Origin: a virus | Length of the DNA: 64,000 nucleotides | Virus record (IMG/VR): IMGVR_UViG_3300030390_000715 | Coordinates: 1 to 64,000 of that record | Direction: 5' to 3' (one strand) | Shown here: positions 6,330 to 64,000 of the stretch, piece by piece | Position numbering within the stretch: the first letter of the stretch is position 1 | How the letters are laid out: each line of letters starts with the position of its first letter | The notes under the pieces: model-generated | What the model saw: the letters and a program-made list of their open reading frames with translations, nothing else | Database searches by the model: none | What the model was told of the DNA's origin: nothing | Made by a program: the position numbers and the translations under genes

Positions 6330-6968
6330 ATGATAGTAGATAAAAAGTTCGAGAAAACTCTCGAAGATTTAGCGGAAAAACAACTCTTTTATGTAATGAA
6401 GAATAAAGGGTTGTTTTCCGATCCTACACATCTTAGCACTGTTCAATATATGAATGCGAAGAATTGTAGAAATCAGATTAAGTTTAACGAACTTCTCTAT
6501 AATAAGCTAGTGAAACATGATAGCAAGGGAGTGTATCTGGACATTGGAGTTGGTCCAGCCTTCTTAGAGTTATGCAATAGTAAGCTCGGCAATAAGTTAC
6601 ATTTATCGACCGTTGAATGGGAAGAACAGATTGACCAGTTCAAGGTAGTAAGAGATGAATGGGATGTTAATGTCGATTATGTATGTAATGACATACTAGC
6701 AGATGATTTTAAAATATATAATTGTGAGACATTTTACGATTATGTAATATTACAAAGATTCTTTCCAGTCTATAAATCAGACGTAACAGAAAGAATCGAT
6801 GAAGTGTTGAAGAAATTTATACCTTATGCGAAAAAGGCTATTATAGTCGAGGCAGATAATAACTGGTGCTCCAATCAATGGGAGCATTTACTTGCAATAT
6901 CTGAGAAACGCGTGAAGGTGTACGGAAGCTTTAATATGTTTCTCATTAATTTGGAGCGATATAAATGA
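6330..6968 (+). CDS. Methyltransferase-like protein in the head module
   Basis: 212 residues. YLDIGVGPAFLEL near residue 68 resembles motif I of class I SAM-dependent methyltransferases, with an acidic position about 25 residues later (VEWEEQ) and a motif IV-like YDYVILQRFFPV. No substrate can be named. No Shine-Dalgarno sequence precedes the ATG; the late promoter sits directly against it, so either translation runs from read-through mRNA or the true start is internal. An enzyme between gp67 and gp21 is not part of the T4 head order and may be an insertion. Its end overlaps the next gene by 4 bases. Confidence 0.45.
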   Translation: MIVDKKFEKTLEDLAEKQLFYVMKNKGLFSDPTHLSTVQYMNAKNCRNQIKFNELLYNKLVKHDSKGVYLDIGVGPAFLELCNSKLGNKLHLSTVEWEEQIDQFKVVRDEWDVNVDYVCNDILADDFKIYNCETFYDYVILQRFFPVYKSDVTERIDEVLKKFIPYAKKAIIVEADNNWCSNQWEHLLAISEKRVKVYGSFNMFLINLERYK

Positions 6969-7177
6969 TCACATTCGGTCAAATCAGAGTAGTAAGCGAA
7001 GCTAGTAAAATGCCCAAGGGTGAACATGTTTGGGATAAGAAAGTTGGTAAAGTTAAAGTTATGATACACAAAGAGCCAAAAGGCTTCACCACTTATATTG
7101 ACGGTGATAAATTAGATACCTATAAAACTCAAAAAGAAGCCGAGAAGATGGGTATTACATTCGCTAAGGAAATGTAA
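6965..7177 (+). CDS. Small basic head-module protein, gp68 position
   Basis: 70 residues, Lys-rich, starting at an ATGA overlap with the methyltransferase-like gene and abutting gp21. The N-terminus MITFGQIRVVSEASK resembles the short tags on late proteins elsewhere in this window and contains VSE-A, a plausible gp21 cleavage site. The rest (GEHVWDKKVGKVKVMIHKEPKGF, shortened) looks like a small beta sheet. By position it replaces T4 gp68, but I cannot show homology. Confidence 0.5.
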   Translation: MITFGQIRVVSEASKMPKGEHVWDKKVGKVKVMIHKEPKGFTTYIDGDKLDTYKTQKEAEKMGITFAKEM

Positions 7178-7846
7178 ATGAAACTTATTACAGAATATAC
7201 AGAAAATGATGTGCATTGCATTGTAGAGAAAAAAGAGAATGGTGAGAAATCATACATGATCGAAGGTGTATTCATGCAAGCAGAATCAAAGAATAGAAAT
7301 GGTCGTATTTACCCTAAGCAGATTATGGAAAAAGCTGTGGATAAATATGTCAAAGAACAAGTAAGTACGAAACGAGCGGTTGGTGAATTGAACCATCCCG
7401 AAGGTCCTACTGTAAATCTTGATAAAGTTTCACATCTCATTACTGACCTTCAGTGGGAAGGCAATGATGTTGTTGGAAAGGCACAAATATTGGATACTCC
7501 AATGGGTAGGATTGTTAAAGGTCTTCTCGAAGGTGGCGTTCAACTAGGTGTGTCAACTCGTGGTATGGGTAGTCTTGAGAGTAGAAGTGGCGTTATGTAC
7601 GTCAAATCCGATTTTCTTTTGAACACTGTAGATATTGTCCAAGATCCTAGTGCGCCTAGTGCGTTCGTTAATGGAATCATGGAAGGTGTAGACTGGGTTT
7701 GGAATAATGGTATTCTATCACCTCAAGTAATTGAAAATATGGAGACAGAAATAAGAAATGCTCCGAAAGCGTACAGTTCCGCTGTACAAATTCGTGAGTA
7801 CAAAAATTTCCTCTCGTTACTCAAATCTAACTTTAAGGAGTTATAA
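7178..7846 (+). CDS. gp21: Prohead core scaffold protease gp21
   Basis: 222 residues, close to T4 gp21. This serine protease sits in the prohead core and cleaves scaffold, capsid and internal proteins after Glu before DNA packaging. The U9/S77-type signature is visible: GELNHPEG with catalytic His near residue 73, and GVSTRGMG with catalytic Ser near 126. SKNRNGRIYPK and the C-terminal VDIVQDPSAPSAF block are also family hallmarks. It is followed after one base by gp22 and gp23, the canonical order. Confidence 0.95.
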   Translation: MKLITEYTENDVHCIVEKKENGEKSYMIEGVFMQAESKNRNGRIYPKQIMEKAVDKYVKEQVSTKRAVGELNHPEGPTVNLDKVSHLITDLQWEGNDVVGKAQILDTPMGRIVKGLLEGGVQLGVSTRGMGSLESRSGVMYVKSDFLLNTVDIVQDPSAPSAFVNGIMEGVDWVWNNGILSPQVIENMETEIRNAPKAYSSAVQIREYKNFLSLLKSNFKEL

Positions 7847-7847
7847 C

Positions 7848-8888
7848 ATGTCAGATAACGATATGGATACAAAACTTCCTGTTGATGAGGATAACTCAAT
7901 CGAGGAAGCTAGTACTCAACAAATGCCAGTAGGCACAGAAGCGGATTCTATTTCGTCTGTAGATAAGGCAGAGGATGGAGTTAAGAGCAAAGCACCAGTA
8001 CGTAAGGGTGATAGCACTAAGCAAGATCCAGCACCAAAGACTAAAGCCGGTTTACTAAATGCTATGTACGGGAAACTATCTTCTATGAAGAAAGCTGACC
8101 TGAACGCTGTTTTCAGTAAGTTCTCCGAAGATTTCGAAATGGAAGAGTCAGATGCAATTGTATTGCCTGAGTTCTCTGTTACGGATGAATTGAATGATCT
8201 TGTTGAATCAGAAAGCACATTGTCAGATGAATTCAAAGCGAAAACCGCTGTAATCTTTGCAACTGCTGTCAAAGCTAAAATCTCGGAAGAGACTGATAGA
8301 TTAGAAGATGTATACCAATCACGACTTGACGAAGAGCTAGAGGCAACTCGAAGCGACCTTGTTGAGAAAGTGGATTCATATCTCAATTATGTTGTTGAGA
8401 ACTGGATGAAAGAGAATCAGGTAGCTGTAGAATCTGGTTTACGTACTGAGATAGCAGAAGGTTTCATGGCTAGTCTTAAAGACTTGTTTGTTGAATCTTA
8501 TATCGATGTACCTGAGTCTAAGGTGAATCTAGTAGACGAACTAGCGGAGCAAGTTGAAGAGTTAGAAACTAAACTCAACGATTCTGTAGGTTCATCTATT
8601 GCAATGTCAGAAGAATTAGAAGGGCTAAAGCGTTCACAGATTATCCGTGAAAATGCTGGTGACCTTGCTGACACACAGATCGAAAAGCTAGCCTCATTAG
8701 TTGAATCACTCGATTTTGAAGATGCTGAATCCTTTGCAGAGAAAGTTAAGACTGTAAAAGAGTCGTACTTCAAACAAGAAGTGGCTACAACTGAAGAAGC
8801 GATCATGGAAGATGTAGCCTCTGCGCCTGAAGAAGTTTCTGGCGTAATGGGACAATACCTTTCAGCACTTAAAACAATCAAAAAGTAA
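7848..8888 (+). CDS. gp22: Prohead scaffold protein gp22
   Basis: 346 residues from ATG 7848, which has AAGGAG about 6 bases upstream; the longer frame starting at 7758 would overlap gp21. The protein is acidic, Glu/Ser/Lys rich and predicted almost wholly helical or coiled coil, as expected for the scaffold that fills the prohead and is then degraded by gp21. Several (L/I)-x-E steps are candidate cleavage points. It lies between gp21 and gp23. Confidence 0.85.
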   Translation: MSDNDMDTKLPVDEDNSIEEASTQQMPVGTEADSISSVDKAEDGVKSKAPVRKGDSTKQDPAPKTKAGLLNAMYGKLSSMKKADLNAVFSKFSEDFEMEESDAIVLPEFSVTDELNDLVESESTLSDEFKAKTAVIFATAVKAKISEETDRLEDVYQSRLDEELEATRSDLVEKVDSYLNYVVENWMKENQVAVESGLRTEIAEGFMASLKDLFVESYIDVPESKVNLVDELAEQVEELETKLNDSVGSSIAMSEELEGLKRSQIIRENAGDLADTQIEKLASLVESLDFEDAESFAEKVKTVKESYFKQEVATTEEAIMEDVASAPEEVSGVMGQYLSALKTIKK

Positions 8889-8917: not shown

Positions 8918-10258
8918 ATGCAACAATCATACGACAATTTAGTCGAAAAGTGGGGAGCAATCCTCAACGAAGAGTCTGCAGGAACAATCGCAGACAGCCA
9001 CCGTCGATCGGTAACAGCCGCTGTTCTTGAGAACCAAGAAAAAGCTATGGGTGAGCAAGCCGCAATGCTTTCTGAGTCACCTACTAACACTAACGCTACT
9101 GTAACTGGCGCTGATGGCAACTGGAATCCTATCCTTATTGCTCTAGTTCGACGCGCTATGCCTAACTTGATGGCATACGACCTAGCTGGTGTTCAGCCAA
9201 TGACTGGACCTACTGGTCTTATCTTCGCTATGAAGAGCCAGTACAAAACAACTCGTGCCGGAGCTACTACTGGTGACGAAGCGTTTTTCAGCGAAGCAGT
9301 CACCGGCTTCTCTGGTGACAGTTCAGCTACCACAGATGGACGTGGACCTTCTGGTCTTGTCGGCGCAACTGATACTGATGCTGACGGAACCCTAGTTGAT
9401 TCTGGCGCTGTTTATGTTCCTAAAGTTGGCGGAGCTATGCCTACTGTAGATGCAGAAGCACTCGGAAGCACTGGATCTGCGTTCGCAGAGATGGGATTCA
9501 CTATCGAGAAAGCTACTGTAACAGCTAAGTCACGTGCCCTGAAAGCGGCTTACTCGCTCGAATTAGCGCAAGACTTGAAAGCTATCCACGGTCTTGATGC
9601 TGAGACTGAGCTTGCTAACATTCTTTCTACTGAGATCCTTTCAGAGATGAATCGCGAGATCATCCGTACTATCAACAGCCAAGCTAAAATCGGTTGTTTG
9701 CAAGCTAACACAGCAACTAACGGTATCTTTGACTTGTCAACTGATGCTGATGGTCGTTGGAGTGTTGAGAAGTTCAAGGGTCTATTAGTACAATTAGATC
9801 GTGAGTGTAACGTCATTGCTAAAGAAACTCGACGTGGTAAAGGTAATGTAGTGATCTGTTCTTCAGACGTTGCTACTGCTCTAACTGCGGCTGGAATGCT
9901 TGATTATGCTCCTGCTCTTGCTACTAGCTTGAACGTAGATGATACCGGTAATACTTTTGCTGGTGTTCTTAACGGTCGAATCAAAGTCTATATCGATCCA
10001 TATGCTGTCGGTGATTATGTCACTGTTGGTTATAAGGGTACTAACCCATATGATGCTGGTATTTTCTACTGCCCATATGTGCCTTTACAGATGGTTCGTG
10101 CGATTGGCGAAGATGACTTCCAACCACGTATCGGGTTTAAGACTCGTTATGGTATGGTATCTAACCCATATGTCGGAGCTTCTGCGGCTGATGGACTTGC
10201 TACTGCTCGTACCAATCAGTACTACAGGATCTTCCGAGTCGACAATATCTTGGCATAA
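8918..10258 (+). CDS. gp23: Major capsid protein gp23
   Basis: 446 residues (T4 gp23 is 521). The N-terminal helical propeptide is followed by a segment MLSESPT; cleavage after Glu53 would fit the gp21 rule (L/I)-x-E. The mature start GNWNPILIALVRRAMPNLMAYDLAGVQPM (shortened) with downstream GPTGLIFAMKSQY is the conserved T4-family HK97-fold capsid block. CGGAG lies upstream of the ATG, and a strong terminator follows. Folding in T4 needs gp31 with host GroEL; a gp31/GroES-like gene is at 35928. Confidence 0.95.
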   Translation: MQQSYDNLVEKWGAILNEESAGTIADSHRRSVTAAVLENQEKAMGEQAAMLSESPTNTNATVTGADGNWNPILIALVRRAMPNLMAYDLAGVQPMTGPTGLIFAMKSQYKTTRAGATTGDEAFFSEAVTGFSGDSSATTDGRGPSGLVGATDTDADGTLVDSGAVYVPKVGGAMPTVDAEALGSTGSAFAEMGFTIEKATVTAKSRALKAAYSLELAQDLKAIHGLDAETELANILSTEILSEMNREIIRTINSQAKIGCLQANTATNGIFDLSTDADGRWSVEKFKGLLVQLDRECNVIAKETRRGKGNVVICSSDVATALTAAGMLDYAPALATSLNVDDTGNTFAGVLNGRIKVYIDPYAVGDYVTVGYKGTNPYDAGIFYCPYVPLQMVRAIGEDDFQPRIGFKTRYGMVSNPYVGASAADGLATARTNQYYRIFRVDNILA

Positions 10259-56900: not shown

Positions 56901-57275
56901 ATGGCTGATCAACCATTATCGTTCAAGAGTTTCTTGGCGACGGATACACCTACCGAGGCGTTAGACTTCTCACAGAGACGCGCACGTGGTAGAGTGATGA
57001 AAAAGAATAAAGCAAAGATTGCTATGGGGCGCAGACGTGCCGCTAAGAAAACTGCTAGTGTAGAAGTCCTCAAAAAACGCGCTCGTAAAGGCGCAGTCAA
57101 TGACCTATTCAAAAAATTCTCTAAGGGTAAATCACGAGGCGAAATGCCTGCGGCTCGTCGCGCTGAGATAGAAAAGCGTATAAGTAAAATGAGTTCAAAG
57201 GTCGCAGTGATGACCCGTAAGAAACTACCACAGATTCGAAGTCTAGAAAAACAACGTAAGATGGGCAAAAAATGA
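56901..57275 (+). CDS. Very basic tagged late protein
   Basis: 124 residues, about 35 percent Lys plus Arg (RRARGRVMKKNKAKIAMGRR, 20). The N-terminus MADQPLSFKSFLATDTPTEA has the F-K-x-F-L tag seen in neighbours. Composition like T4 internal proteins that bind packaged DNA. AAAAGGTAC precedes the start region. ATGA overlap with the next gene. Confidence 0.6.
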   Translation: MADQPLSFKSFLATDTPTEALDFSQRRARGRVMKKNKAKIAMGRRRAAKKTASVEVLKKRARKGAVNDLFKKFSKGKSRGEMPAARRAEIEKRISKMSSKVAVMTRKKLPQIRSLEKQRKMGKK

Positions 57276-58549
57276 TTCCTTCCTTTAAACAATATCTCGT
57301 AGAAGAAAACCGTGAAGTGTTCTTCTCATTCGGTCGTATGAATCCACCGACAATAGGGCACAGCAAGTTGGTGACTAGTCTAGCTACTAAAGCTGGCAAG
57401 AACCCATATTACATTTATCTTTCACAGACTAATAAGCCTAAAAAAGATCCTCTTGAATACACTCAAAAAGTGAAGCACGTTCGTAAGATGTTCCCTAAGC
57501 ATGGACGAAATGTTGTACTCGACAAGAAGGTGCGTGATGTATTCGACATTGCTGTCGGGCTATATGCTCAAGGATTTAATAAGATCACAATGGTCGTTGG
57601 TTCTGATCGCGTCACTGAATTCGAAACACTCCTGAATAAGTATAACGGTAAAGAAGGTCGACATGGAACGTATAACTTCGAGCGTATCACCGTAATATCA
57701 GGGGGTGAACGCGATCCTGATAGCGATGGTGTCGAAGGAATGTCTGCCTCTAAACAACGCGAAAATGCTCGAAACAATGATTTCTCTACATTCTCTCAAG
57801 GCTTACCTAAGAATGTAAACGCTAAAGATGCAAAGAAGTTGTTCAATGACGTTCGAGCGGGAATGGGGCTAGAAGAAACTACCTCGTTTAAAAATCATAT
57901 TGAGTTAGAGTCCGTTAGCGAAACCCGCGAGAAATTCGTAAAGGGTGAACTGTTCAATCTCACTGATAAAGTCGTTATCATAGAAGATCAGCGCACAGGC
58001 TATATTCAGACGATAGGCACTAATTATGTTATCGTAGCATTAGATGAAGGTGGTATTACTCGACAATGGATTGATTCAGTCGAGAGAATATCCGAGAGAT
58101 CACTTTCTAACTTAGCAATTGATTTTATCGACAAGAAGCTTAATGCTAAAAAGTACACTAGTGCTATACAGACTTTTATCAAAATCGCACGAAAGAATCC
58201 TGATAGCAATCAAAATGTGGTCAAAGCCGCGCAGGTTCATCGTCTTCCAGTACGCCAACTTCAAAGCATTATAAAAGACATGCTGAAGAGTAAAGACGCG
58301 CCCAAAGAATTGTTAAACTATAGAAAAATGTTCGAGTCTGCGCCTGAATGGGGCACAGATGAAGCTACTGAGAAGGCTAAAACTATGGTTCCAGGGCAGA
58401 ACGAAGAGAAAGAAGATGCCGTTGATACCGCACGTAAGGTCATAGCTAAAGATGACAAACTTGATAAAATTAAGCATGATCGTATTATGGATAGAGCAAG
58501 ACTAAATCGCGCTAGACGCAAAAATAAACAGACGAATCCAAAAGTATAA
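57272..58549 (+). CDS. Tagged nucleotidyltransferase (HxGH family), multidomain
   Basis: 425 residues. Tag MIPSFKQYLVEE, then VFFSFGRMNPPTIGHSKLV (near 16; T-x-G-H nucleotide site) and VEGMSASKQRENARN (near 155), the cytidylyl/NMN-adenylyltransferase pattern. After about 200 come linkers ELESVSET and MFESAPEW and two further small domains with a Lys-rich end. A late-expressed enzyme that may be packaged in the head; substrate unknown. Confidence 0.65.
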   Translation: MIPSFKQYLVEENREVFFSFGRMNPPTIGHSKLVTSLATKAGKNPYYIYLSQTNKPKKDPLEYTQKVKHVRKMFPKHGRNVVLDKKVRDVFDIAVGLYAQGFNKITMVVGSDRVTEFETLLNKYNGKEGRHGTYNFERITVISGGERDPDSDGVEGMSASKQRENARNNDFSTFSQGLPKNVNAKDAKKLFNDVRAGMGLEETTSFKNHIELESVSETREKFVKGELFNLTDKVVIIEDQRTGYIQTIGTNYVIVALDEGGITRQWIDSVERISERSLSNLAIDFIDKKLNAKKYTSAIQTFIKIARKNPDSNQNVVKAAQVHRLPVRQLQSIIKDMLKSKDAPKELLNYRKMFESAPEWGTDEATEKAKTMVPGQNEEKEDAVDTARKVIAKDDKLDKIKHDRIMDRARLNRARRKNKQTNPKV

Positions 58550-58557: not shown

Positions 58558-59769
58558 ATGAAATCATTTAAAACTGTAATAGAATCTGTATCGCAAAGAG
58601 AACTAGACGACCTCGAGAAATTCGGGGACAGACTACTTAACAAATTTGACATCGATATAGAATTCACTCGACACTTCGCCGATCGTCTTAATGATAAGAG
58701 GAATAAGCCTGCTATTGACGTAGAAGAGCTAAAAACTCTATTCAAAAAGATGGCAGATAATAAAGGCAAGAAGATCAAAAAGCATGGTAACTCTGAAGTT
58801 ATTCTAAAAGATATGCAGGCTGATCTTAATCTACCTGTCGTGATTAACTGGAAGAACGGTGAGTTCGAAGTTGTTAACAAAACTATTATGAGAAAGAAGG
58901 GTTTTAAATCTCCTGACCCTATGCTAAAATACGAGTCTGTCGAAGAAGAGCGGAACTATCGCAAAGAATACGATAACTACCATAAAGACCCAATTCAAGT
59001 AAAAAGACGCGCAAAGAGAAATGAAGCGCGTCGAAGCTTACGCGGTAGAAAAGACTTGACGGATGATAAGGATGTGCATCATAAAGATAACGATCCAATG
59101 AACAACGATCCATCAAACTTAGCTATAGTAACACAACACTATAATCGCAGAGAACCGAGACTTCGCAAAGAGGAAACCGCTACAGTGAAAACTATACAGG
59201 ACATCATCAAAGAGTCAGGAGCGCGACGATTGACCAATCGCTTAAAGAAGGGCGGTGTTGATCTTGACAAACGAGCGAAAGAACGTGCCGCTAGTCATGC
59301 CGCATTAGTAAAGAAGTATGCGAGTGATAAGAAGGAAGAAGTCGATGAAATGAAAGACGATCCTTGTTGGAAAGATCACGAAATGGTCGGGCACAAGATG
59401 AAGAATGGTAAAAAAGTACCTAATTGTGTACCCAAAGAATCTGTTAAAGAAGCTCGAAGTATAAAGATTGCTAAGGGTGATAAAACTCGTACCGTTAATA
59501 AGCAAGAGCTATCTACATACAAGCAGATGGGCTGGAAAGTAGTCGCTGAATCTGCTCTTCTTGACGAAGAAACATTTTACATTGATTTTCTGAATAAGAA
59601 AAAGGGATTTAAACAAGATAGGATTAAGTTTAAATCTCACGATGCCGCAGTAAAATGGGCTAAGAAAAACATGGATAAGTTTAACAGCGATATGATAAAA
59701 ACAGAAAGTGTTAACCTTGAAGTCGAACGGGATTTCTTTGCTATTAGAGAAGCGACGAAGAAAAATTAA
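58558..59769 (+). CDS. Tagged multidomain late protein with HNH domain
   Basis: 403 residues. Tag MKSFKTVIES; domain 1 (FTRHFADRLNDKRNKPAIDV to KTIMRKKGFKSPDP) is common in marine T4-like phages. HNH nuclease motif DKDVHHKDNDPMNNDPSNLA (20) near 165-190. Then DPCWKDHEMVGHK with VPNCVPKES, and two more small units. Linkers KYES, IKES, PKES, VAES and KTES separate the parts. The HNH is embedded within a conserved late gene, not intron-like. Confidence 0.65.
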   Translation: MKSFKTVIESVSQRELDDLEKFGDRLLNKFDIDIEFTRHFADRLNDKRNKPAIDVEELKTLFKKMADNKGKKIKKHGNSEVILKDMQADLNLPVVINWKNGEFEVVNKTIMRKKGFKSPDPMLKYESVEEERNYRKEYDNYHKDPIQVKRRAKRNEARRSLRGRKDLTDDKDVHHKDNDPMNNDPSNLAIVTQHYNRREPRLRKEETATVKTIQDIIKESGARRLTNRLKKGGVDLDKRAKERAASHAALVKKYASDKKEEVDEMKDDPCWKDHEMVGHKMKNGKKVPNCVPKESVKEARSIKIAKGDKTRTVNKQELSTYKQMGWKVVAESALLDEETFYIDFLNKKKGFKQDRIKFKSHDAAVKWAKKNMDKFNSDMIKTESVNLEVERDFFAIREATKKN

Positions 59770-59810
59770 TCAACTATATAACGGATCGACTTGATCGATA
59801 ACAATAAAAA

Positions 59811-60119
59811 ATGGCAGTCACTAACGCAGATAGATTAACAAGAATTGAAGACAAGCTCGACGCGATGGGCGAAGCATTGGTAGCTATCGCAAGAATTCAG
59901 GAGAAAGTTGCAGATTTGGAAAATCGACGAGAAGAGCAAAGCGATCGGCTCAACCATGAATCTAAAAAATTAGATGATATAGATACGAAAGTCACAGCAT
60001 TGATTACGAAAGTTGGAGCTATGCAAACCTATGGCATGGTAGCATTCTCGGCTCTAGCTTCAGTGATATTAGCAGTATTAACCGGTGCGATTGGAGTACC
60101 ACACATACCACACCCCTAG
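59811..60119 (+). CDS. Coiled-coil protein with C-terminal membrane span
   Basis: 102 residues: coiled coil 5-70 (LTRIEDKLDAMGEALVAIAR, 20) and hydrophobic MVAFSALASVILAVLTGAI near 78-96. This XhlA-like layout suggests a holin accessory or tail-membrane factor. Its stop overlaps the AGGAGAAC ribosome site of the next gene. Confidence 0.55.
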   Translation: MAVTNADRLTRIEDKLDAMGEALVAIARIQEKVADLENRREEQSDRLNHESKKLDDIDTKVTALITKVGAMQTYGMVAFSALASVILAVLTGAIGVPHIPHP

Positions 60120-60128
60120 GAGAACAAC

Positions 60129-61487
60129 ATGAACACCGAACACATTAATAGAATTGCTGACTTGTGGCGTAACATGCATACAGAAGCTAAAAAGCTCGAT
60201 CCAGTAGATGACAAGGCAAACGATAAAAAATTCAAAGATCGAAAAGACAAAGACATCGATAATGATGGTGATGTTGACGGTTCCGACAAGTTTCTGCATA
60301 AGAAGCGCAAAGCTATCGACAATGAGATTGATGGTGGTGAGAAGCCAGCGAAGAATGAGTCGACCGACCTTGATGAAGCAAAGGAACATACCTACACTGT
60401 AGTTCACGCTAAGAAAGGTAAGGTTGTAGTTAAAGCCCCCACCTCTTATGATGCCGCCATGAAAGCCGCCAAGGGATGGAAGTTGAAGTCTACGGCTGGT
60501 ATTGATTCTCACCTTATGGAAGAAACTCTTGACGAAGCGCAAGGCAAGTTAAATGCCAAAGGCGAGATCGAGATGACTGCGAAGAACTACGCCAAGGTTC
60601 ACAAAGACTTTAAGACCAAGATCAAAGGAACTTCTTATGCTATGCAGATAGATCCTAAGACTGGCGGTTCTGCACTGTTTCCTGTTACGTTCATCAAAGA
60701 ATCGGTCGAAGAAGCTTGTGGTGATGACAAGAAGATGATGAAAAAAGAAGACGATGCTGATGCAAAGATGACTGCTTGTTCTGATTGCGATGGATCTACT
60801 GACAATCACGACGAGGAATGCCCTACTAGTGGCTCAAAGAAGAAGCCAAAGAAGGGTGAGGACGATGATAAAGACCTCGAAGAAGCGGCTGAAGCATCTA
60901 ATTGGAATGTTCAGATACCCAAGCAAACTATCTCCGGCAAGACCGTAGGTGGTGGTAAGCAAGGTATCGTCGTTAAAGCAAAAACTGCTCGTCAAGCAAT
61001 CAGCATGGCAGCCAGACGTTTGGCTGTTGATTTCAAGATGCTTAGAGTCGGTAAGGTAATTAAAGAGGGGAAAGTTAATATGAAAGAGAATGCGGTTACA
61101 CATGCGAAACATGGTTACGGTGAAATTCTTCAGCGTACCGCTGAAGGCGTAGATGTCATGTTTGAACATGGTGTTGAGATGGGAATGGACGAGTCTGAGC
61201 TAATAGGTATTCTAGAGAAGAGTGCTACAGGTAGTCAGAAGCAAGCTAAAAATGTTCCTGGTGCTGGTGGCGAGAAGCATGGCGAAACGGCTTCTGCTGG
61301 TGAGAAAGCGTTTGCAAAAGGTTTAGGAAAAGATGGCGAGTCTGTCGGCACTGAAGAAGAAGATGGTGTCAATGACGTTAATAAAGCCTCTCGCGTAAAG
61401 GGTCAAGCACCTACGCGTGGTAGTGAGCCTCGAATTGGCGACAAAGCTATTGTTAAGCCAGTAACTGATCCTTCGAAGGGGAAATAA
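60129..61487 (+). CDS. Late multidomain protein with EF-hand-type loop
   Basis: 452 residues, acidic. DKDIDNDGDVDGSDKFLHKK near 37 is an EF-hand/dockerin calcium loop. It is followed by repeated small alpha/beta units (VVVKAPTSYDAAMKAAKGWK near 100, IVVKAKTARQAISMAARRLA near 285, 20 each) and a Cys-rich acidic patch (CSDCDGSTDNHDEEC). Units are joined by NEST, IKESVEEA, LEEAAEAS and VIKEGKV. Looks modular, perhaps proteolytically processed. Confidence 0.6.
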   Translation: MNTEHINRIADLWRNMHTEAKKLDPVDDKANDKKFKDRKDKDIDNDGDVDGSDKFLHKKRKAIDNEIDGGEKPAKNESTDLDEAKEHTYTVVHAKKGKVVVKAPTSYDAAMKAAKGWKLKSTAGIDSHLMEETLDEAQGKLNAKGEIEMTAKNYAKVHKDFKTKIKGTSYAMQIDPKTGGSALFPVTFIKESVEEACGDDKKMMKKEDDADAKMTACSDCDGSTDNHDEECPTSGSKKKPKKGEDDDKDLEEAAEASNWNVQIPKQTISGKTVGGGKQGIVVKAKTARQAISMAARRLAVDFKMLRVGKVIKEGKVNMKENAVTHAKHGYGEILQRTAEGVDVMFEHGVEMGMDESELIGILEKSATGSQKQAKNVPGAGGEKHGETASAGEKAFAKGLGKDGESVGTEEEDGVNDVNKASRVKGQAPTRGSEPRIGDKAIVKPVTDPSKGK

Positions 61488-63279: not shown

Positions 63280-64000
63280 ATGCCCGTAAAAATTGATAAA
63301 AATCGCGATGAATTATTAAAAGATTATGCTGTAGGAATGTTGCGCGATTTCTATATGACAGACAAAGAAACCTCACCACAGCAAGCCTATCGAAGAGCCG
63401 CAAGAGCATGGTCTTGTTACGAGGGTCAAATGGACGAAGCCCTAGCACAACGCTTATATGACTATGTTTCGAAAAAGTGGTTTATGTTCGCTTCCCCAGT
63501 TTTATCGAATGCGCCTGAAATGAGTAACGGTCTGTCTCCAAAGGGTATGCCTATATCATGTTTCTTGACATATGTTCCAGATACATTAGAGGGCTTGATT
63601 AGTCACACTTCTGAACTACGTTGGTTATCTGTTTATGGGGGTGGAGTTGGCGGACACTGGAGTGCTGTTCGGACTGTATCAGACGTAGCACCTGGTCCTA
63701 TGCCTTTTCTACATACAGTTGATGCAGACATGATCGCTTATAGACAAGGTAAAACGAGAAAGGGTTCATACGCGGCTTATATGGACATCTCTCACCCAGA
63801 CATTATCGAATTCTTAAATATGCGCGTACCTACAGGTGACGTACAGCGTAAAGCACTAAACCTTCATAACGCTATTAATATCACTGATGAATTCATGGAG
63901 GCGGTGCGATTCAATTACGAGTTTGCATTGCGTGATCCTAAAGACAACGGTATAAAGGAGATGATCAACGCTCGAAAGACTTGGGAACGTATTCTGGAAA
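63280..64000 (+). CDS. nrdA: Ribonucleotide reductase large subunit NrdA, 3'-truncated
   Basis: The reading frame is open from ATG 63280 (GAAAGGTA upstream) to the right edge, 240 residues. WFMFASPVLSNAP, MPISCFLTYVPDTL (first redox Cys), LRWLSVYGGGVGGHWSAVR and YAAYMDISHPDIIEFL are class I alpha-subunit signatures. There is no N-terminal ATP-cone, so dATP inhibition is probably absent. It supplies dNTPs together with dCMP deaminase. The 63196-63279 gap has a TATAAT but no clear -35. Confidence 0.9.
   Translation, partial: MPVKIDKNRDELLKDYAVGMLRDFYMTDKETSPQQAYRRAARAWSCYEGQMDEALAQRLYDYVSKKWFMFASPVLSNAPEMSNGLSPKGMPISCFLTYVPDTLEGLISHTSELRWLSVYGGGVGGHWSAVRTVSDVAPGPMPFLHTVDADMIAYRQGKTRKGSYAAYMDISHPDIIEFLNMRVPTGDVQRKALNLHNAINITDEFMEAVRFNYEFALRDPKDNGIKEMINARKTWERILE

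Follow-up and report, generated by a model that had tools for sequence, protein, structure and literature searches.

Two genes near the end of a 64-kb stretch of DNA from a marine T4-like virus of bacteria (the window; positions 1-64,000 of a 152,753-bp record) encode strings of small domains separated by short linkers that contain Glu-Ser or Glu-Ala. Given these linkers, a preliminary description of the DNA proposed that the genes, which start at positions 58558 and 60129 and are named by those positions here, encode polyproteins that the gp21-type head protease cuts into several head peptides. We asked whether the locus bears out this proposal, and what the pieces might be.

The head protease and the virion location of related proteins

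The phage that carries 58558 and 60129 encodes its own gp21-type protease, identified by a PF03420 match at 7178-7846, and the gp22 and gp23 genes adjoin the protease gene (Table 1). The start of gp22 was set at an internal ATG (MSDND) of ORF 7758-8888. T4 gp21 cuts after L/I-x-E (PMC9026906), and the gp21 homologue of phage SPN3US cuts after A-x-E with a preference for Ser at P1', cutting long propeptides several times (PMC10052503). When the site region of gp23 from this virus was aligned with relatives and with T4, the predicted gp21 site was AMLSE53↓S (the arrow marks the predicted bond). Among gp23 relatives, 75 of 76 distinct N-terminal regions contain [LIM]-x-E in the segment matching the cleavage region of T4 gp23, a count that leans towards the motif because the best-fitting site was picked in a short stretch. 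P3 at these sites is L (60), I (9) or M (6), and P1' is A (47), T (10), S (6), V (6), D (3), Q (2) or G (1). PF03420 was also found in seven of the eight large contigs carrying modules, the eighth being a 91-kb record. A 70-aa gene at 6965-7177, immediately 5' of gp21, has the leader-like start MITFGQIRVVSE↓AS and possibly encodes a further small head protein.

The block of modular genes occupies 55.6-63 kb and is followed by nrdA at 63280. A DNA search with the block region returned no near match. The cyanophages S-SCSM1 and S-PM2 have a similar gene order (NMNAT-like gene, modular genes, primase, nrdA), and relatives of the block proteins are located near primase in phiM12 and Melnitz. The syntenic ORF89, 90, 91 (NMNAT), 92 and 93 of S-SCSM1 are annotated as virion proteins. 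Mass spectrometry of CsCl-purified S-SCSM1 virions identified 45 phage proteins, NMNAT among them, and its authors cite the virions of two further cyanophages as containing NMNAT-like proteins, noting that for enzymes carry-over of non-virion protein is possible (PMC9602691). The 57272 protein is 37% identical to ORF91 (E 1.6e-52), which starts with MKSFLQFLKE↓A. ORF92 contains an EF-hand-like module that is 74% identical over 39 aa to an ORF at IMG/VR locus L042. ORF93 (69 aa; MPAVSKAQQRFMGMVHA...; L253:5034-5243) is a free-standing copy of a module that closes the 673-aa polyprotein L045:8137-10158 and lies within the chain in L042. The published data place the cyanophage homologues in the virion, and the proteins of this virus may be located there too.

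Table 1. Head genes and module boundaries in the window; arrows mark predicted bonds.
Feature	Positions	Strand	Basis
gp21-type prohead protease (Peptidase_S77), proposed cutter	7178..7846	+	PF03420 E 3.7e-45; phrog_207 head maturation protease E 2e-80
gp22-type head scaffold protein	7848..8888	+	phrog_237 E 1.1e-74 (ORF 7758-8888)
gp23 major capsid protein	8918..10258	+	phrog_138 E 5.3e-158; T4 gp23 E 6.3e-82
56901: basic single-module protein, N-terminal leader (SFKSFLA...TPTE↓A) and Lys/Arg-rich module	56901..57275	+	
57272: NMNAT/cytidyltransferase-like protein, conserved leader SFKQYLVEE	57272..58549	+	phrog_3041 E 7.1e-62
58558 aa 1-9, capsid-targeting-like leader MKSFKTVIE	58558..58584	+	position matches MKRFKLFIE, MKTFNVLLE, MLRFRGYISE in stand-alone/N-terminal relatives
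58558 aa 10-126, module A1, putative RelE/HigB-like fold, end KYE126↓S	58585..58935	+	AF2, VIA, junction Glu 11/11 contexts
58558 aa 127-219, HNH nuclease module, end IKE219↓S	58936..59214	+	PF13392 E 8e-6; pelagiphage HNH proteins 44-58% identity
58558 aa 220-294, NCVP-motif module (CWKDHEMVGHKMKNGKKVPNCVPKE)	59215..59439	+	cyanophage hits <=77% identity over 30 aa
58558 linker SVKE between E294 and A299	59440..59451	+	spacing of 4 residues between E↓S and E↓A
58558 aa 299-331, short module (KGDKTRTV...GWKVVAE)	59452..59550	+	43 matches aligned, in different arrangements
58558 aa 332-403, C-terminal remainder, contains E383↓S	59551..59766	+	boundary from motif only
60129 aa 1-19, N-terminal leader, end HTE↓A	60129..60185	+	ordered helix 3-18
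60129 aa 20-83, module B1 and linker with E77↓S, E83↓A	60186..60377	+	85 matches in many contexts
60129 aa 84-136, module B2	60378..60536	+	N-side Glu 5/5 contexts, P3 L/M
60129 aa 137-191, module B3, LDE136↓A to IKE191↓S	60537..60701	+	invariant Glu, C-side 7/7 and N-side 6/6 (false hits removed)
60129 aa 192-255, module B4, acidic and rich in Cys; linkers E191↓S, E195↓A, E252↓A, E255↓A	60702..60893	+	low pLDDT
60129 aa 256-313, module B5, end VIKE313↓G	60894..61067	+	AF2 ordered island; C-side Glu 4/4
60129 aa 314-452, module B6: helices 332-367, then disordered tail	61068..61484	+	

Modules and Glu sites of the window proteins

All of the Glu-Ser and Glu-Ala motifs listed in the preliminary description are present in the 58558, 60129 and 57272 proteins at the places given there. 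The Glu sites of the 58558 protein are E9↓S, E126↓S (KYES), E219↓S (IKES), E294↓S and E298↓A (PKESVKEA), E331↓S (VAES) and E383↓S (KTES); those of the 60129 protein are E19↓A, E77↓S, E83↓A and E136↓A (LDEA), E191↓S and E195↓A (IKESVEEA), and E252↓A and E255↓A (LEEAAEA). Six of 16 candidate sites follow the strict T4 rule L/I-x-E (IKE219 in 58558; LDE83, LDE136, IKE191, LEE252 and IKE313 in 60129), and at the other ten P3 is V, K, P, H or A. We compared E[SA] counts with composition-preserving shuffles of each protein across the whole 152,753-bp genome, which has 179 non-overlapping ORFs. The 58558 protein has 9 against 3.5 expected (p 0.0067 uncorrected, tied for first rank) and the 60129 protein has 10 against 6.0 expected (p 0.057, fifth). 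Neither excess survives correction for 179 ORFs, and the whole-genome count is at expectation (379 vs 391); thus, the signal from this single genome is marginal, whereas that from its relatives, described in the next section, is strong.

Module A1 of the 58558 protein was modelled (AF2) with a pLDDT of ~93 across aa 11-120. Structure comparison (VIA) returned many RelE/HigB/YafQ rows, the best being RelE with a Z of 6.0 (rmsd 2.9, 77 residues), a score that is under 8 and so below the range of safe matches, and a Foldseek search with A1 gave no hit under E 0.001. The model of A1 looks like the RelE/HigB/YafQ toxin fold. The A1 family is present in phiM12, Melnitz and many marine contigs, and is labelled hypothetical in phage records. 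For aa 332-383 (A5), no homologue was found in the set of relatives that we retrieved.

The AF2 model of the 60129 protein is ordered at residues ~1-67, 137-191, 256-313 and 332-367, with low confidence in between, including most of the B2 region. The islands 137-191 (B3, with blocks of 10 residues at pLDDT 79-90) and 256-313 start and end at predicted cuts. Two units of this protein had been described as internal paralogues. While BLASTP between aa 84-136 and aa 256-313 found no similarity, B2 and B5 each match one intermediate family (hhalign probability 96.1 and 96.7%, against 18% for the direct comparison), so that a remote paralogy of the two, visible through profiles, is likely. B1 (aa 20-77; 60186-60359) contains an EF-hand/dockerin-like calcium-binding loop, DIDNDGDVDGSD, called by inspection, and a homologous module lies in the S-SCSM1 virion protein ORF92, linked through L042. 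Short modules of the B1 type are frequent in marine phage proteins, and similar loops occur in S-TIM5, S-PM2 and S-SCSM1. In relatives, B4 mostly comes after B1. Foldseek with the 60129 model found nothing under E 0.001, and a comparison of the protein with a phage collection gave no match.

The ELESVS and MFESAP motifs of the 57272 protein had also been counted among the linkers. As cleavage sites, E213↓S and E355↓S were dropped because the Glu is not conserved: relatives have IELEP, IEMPT, IEMGH or ISLQP at the first, and YKDQPEW where the window has FESAPEW at the second.

These modules bear on the possibility that the chains are prohead core proteins, comparable to T4 gp67, gp68 and gp22, which gp21 would cut into pieces that mostly exit the head and have no later role. 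T4 core proteins are indeed cut into multiple fragments, most of which exit the head (PMC9026906), and acidic, partly disordered stretches are present here too. However, the modules are folded and conserved, some resemble enzymes (HNH, NMNAT, P-loop kinase, RelE-like), and their homologues remain in mature virions. Likewise, T4 gp22 and gp67 resemble the present proposal in that one chain is cut into several pieces by gp21, but those pieces are scaffold remnants and the chains here are strings of folded modules. We therefore regard a core role as very unlikely.

Module shuffling and the junction Glu in related phages

Scans of IMG/VR with the 58558 and 60129 proteins gave matches that mainly cover single modules. 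The ORFs there consist of modules of ~30-120 aa strung together in varying order, up to 1,310 aa in total length; a module can change its place in the chain or form a gene of its own, and seams mark the points where modules meet. The seam is stereotyped as K-E↓S-V-x-L-D/E-E↓A, as in KESVELDEA, KESVDLEEA and KESVEEA. For example, one chain at L075 joins relatives of 57272, 56901 and A1 of 58558, which are separate genes in the window, to a P-loop kinase module, and relatives of the 56901 protein are fused into long polyproteins at L075, L078 and L045 and in phiM12. The P-loop kinase-like module (GGPGSGKSFIVGK) lies between seams in the polyproteins L075:2431-6363 and L078:3115-6369. A 303-aa protein, L057:7055-7966, has the variant seam ESVELGE three times.

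The most context-promiscuous 4-5-mers at these loci include ESVE, KESV, LDEA, ESVEL, KESVE and VELDE. In ORFs around gp23, seam k-mers are less frequent by a factor of 2 to 11 (per 10,000 residues, modular loci vs gp23 region: KESV 3.0 vs 0.28, LDEA 2.5 vs 0.28, VELDE 1.1 vs 0.14 and ESVE 3.7 vs 1.6). The same k-mers head the list in neighbouring ORFs that have no homology to the window proteins, indicating that the system holds more modules than the window does.

At seven module ends, the junction Glu is invariant across 41 contexts while the flanking residues vary: A1 end (11/11), B3 end (7/7), B3 start (6/6), B2 start (5/5), B5 end (4/4), and the start (4/4) and end (4/4) of intermediate family X. 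For this count, similar flanks were removed, two regex false hits at the B3 start were left out, and the A4, B1, D and NCVP rows, in which unrelated matches were mixed, were omitted, as was the N-side of A1 because the anchor itself contained Glu. P1' at the junctions can be S, A, G, D, E, K, V, L, M or I, and P3 at N-side junctions is L, M, I or V. A reading in which E[SA] has no special meaning and merely reflects proteins rich in E, K, S and A would fit the marginal enrichment in the window alone, but is contradicted by the invariant junction Glu and the promiscuous linker k-mers; we give it almost no credence.

Gene-start copies of A1 carry leaders that include MKRFKLFIE, MKTFNVLLE and MKSFKTVIE (the last in 58558), and stand-alone copies have an MKxFxxFIE-type leader in place of the seam of fused copies, indicating that leader Glu and seam Glu share one position. 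The near-identical ORFs L045 and L047 stop exactly at KYE, where the window protein reads KYE↓S. At L035, L049 and L082, a leader-like MTFSQMRE↓A (MMTFSQMRE↓A in L035 and L049) lies inside a long chain, suggesting a gene fusion in which the leader was kept as a seam. The leader pattern occurs in 28% of modular ORFs and 13% of neighbours, with related sequences kept in both counts.

Two other measures were set aside. A hydrophobic P3 before E[SA] is equally common in modular and neighbouring control ORFs (44.5% vs 45.8%), so this comparison does not discriminate and was dropped as proof of gp21 specificity. Homology breakpoints lie within 6 aa of E[SA] in 29% vs 19% at starts, a modest enrichment, and were not kept as strong evidence since other linker dipeptides (LD, EE, VE) also lie near breakpoints.

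Codon use in the linkers is biased (CTT encodes the Leu of VELDE in 76% vs 22%) and more uniform than background, indicating that common descent carried by recombination is part of the history of the seams. Synonymous forms are plentiful, with 24 distinct sequences for 48 KESV, and the similarity of seams may be due in part to copied DNA. Such codon uniformity also fits a reading of the chains as uncut multidomain virion proteins, from which gp21 would remove the leader only and in which the acidic seams would serve as flexible linkers and as homology for exchange. The P3 preference, no higher than in controls, is consistent with this, and multidomain injected 'polyvalent' proteins such as the N4 virion RNA polymerase are packaged unprocessed (PMC5512222). 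On the other hand, a flexible linker has no need of one invariant Glu amid varying neighbours, ORFs stop exactly at a junction Glu, the seams resemble the gp23 site motif, and these modules are also encoded singly, by small genes that have leaders. On this evidence, we consider uncut chains unlikely.

Proposed processing and its relation to known systems

Taken together, the shuffled modules with invariant Glu, the T4-like leaders, the location of gp21 beside gp22 and gp23, the LxE↓[A/S] site of gp23 and the virion mass spectrometry of the syntenic block argue for cleavage, and we think it probable that the 58558 and 60129 proteins are packaged polyproteins that gp21 cuts into small internal head proteins. 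The seams resemble the predicted target sites of the head protease that this virus encodes, so each gene probably yields several small proteins. Several independent lines thus support that part of the preliminary description in which virion polyproteins are cut after Glu; its sites in 57272 fall away, and instead of head peptides the predicted products seem to be small folded proteins of ~33-120 aa.

We propose that the N-terminal leader, like the T4 capsid-targeting sequence, would bring the polyprotein into the prohead core. During maturation, gp21 would cut after the seam Glu, at a mostly hydrophobic residue-x-E↓[S/A/G/D], and the leader and short linkers (SVKE, SVEE) would be lost. The folded modules (RelE-like, HNH, EF-hand-like and others, ~33-120 aa) would remain with the DNA and enter the host; by analogy, the packaged modules are probably injected. 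The pieces may act as host-takeover or counter-defence proteins, as the parallel with T4 internal proteins and the presence of RelE-like and HNH modules suggest.

The T4 internal head proteins IPI, IPII and IPIII and Alt have a capsid targeting sequence that is removed by gp21. They resemble the present chains in their short leader ending in Glu, which in these chains is a putative targeting sequence, in the gp21-type protease and in the diversity of proteins that are packaged (probably so here) and likely injected, but they are single proteins with one propeptide, whereas several modules per chain with seams between them are found here. The proposed processing likely extends that of T4 internal proteins to several modules per chain. 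The head ejection proteins of SPN3US and phiKZ (gp21 homologue gp245, gp175) are, as proposed here, cut after Glu, in SPN3US with Ser preferred at P1', and their long propeptides are cut more than once, but the known multiple cuts lie within propeptides, the mature part is one piece, and the SPN3US motif is A-x-E (PMC10052503).

Like the polyvalent proteins of phages and conjugative elements, the chains consist of multiple unrelated domains that are shuffled between phages, with conflict-related domains in or with the particle; the authors who described polyvalent proteins liken them to polyproteins (PMC5512222). The present chains differ in their very small modules, their stereotyped seam and the lack of a detected embedded peptidase domain: a Pfam scan of 58558 and 60129 returned HNH_3 only and no peptidase domain, a scan that small diverged domains can escape. 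Not every polyvalent protein has an embedded peptidase. We found no earlier description of polyproteins in T4-like marine phages in a search of freely available papers.

We regard as slightly more likely than not a broader view in which a large group of marine T4-like phages uses true polyproteins. Each such gene would carry a cassette of many small injected effectors, gp21 would release them within the prohead by cutting a stereotyped seam twice, and phages would exchange modules at the seams. If this is true, tailed phages use the polyprotein trick of RNA viruses, with the capsid protease as the cutter and many small proteins per head. Applied to marine phage proteins that lack annotation, the sequence rule of the seam would then divide many of them into functional units, and would supply candidate injected effectors and nucleases for testing.
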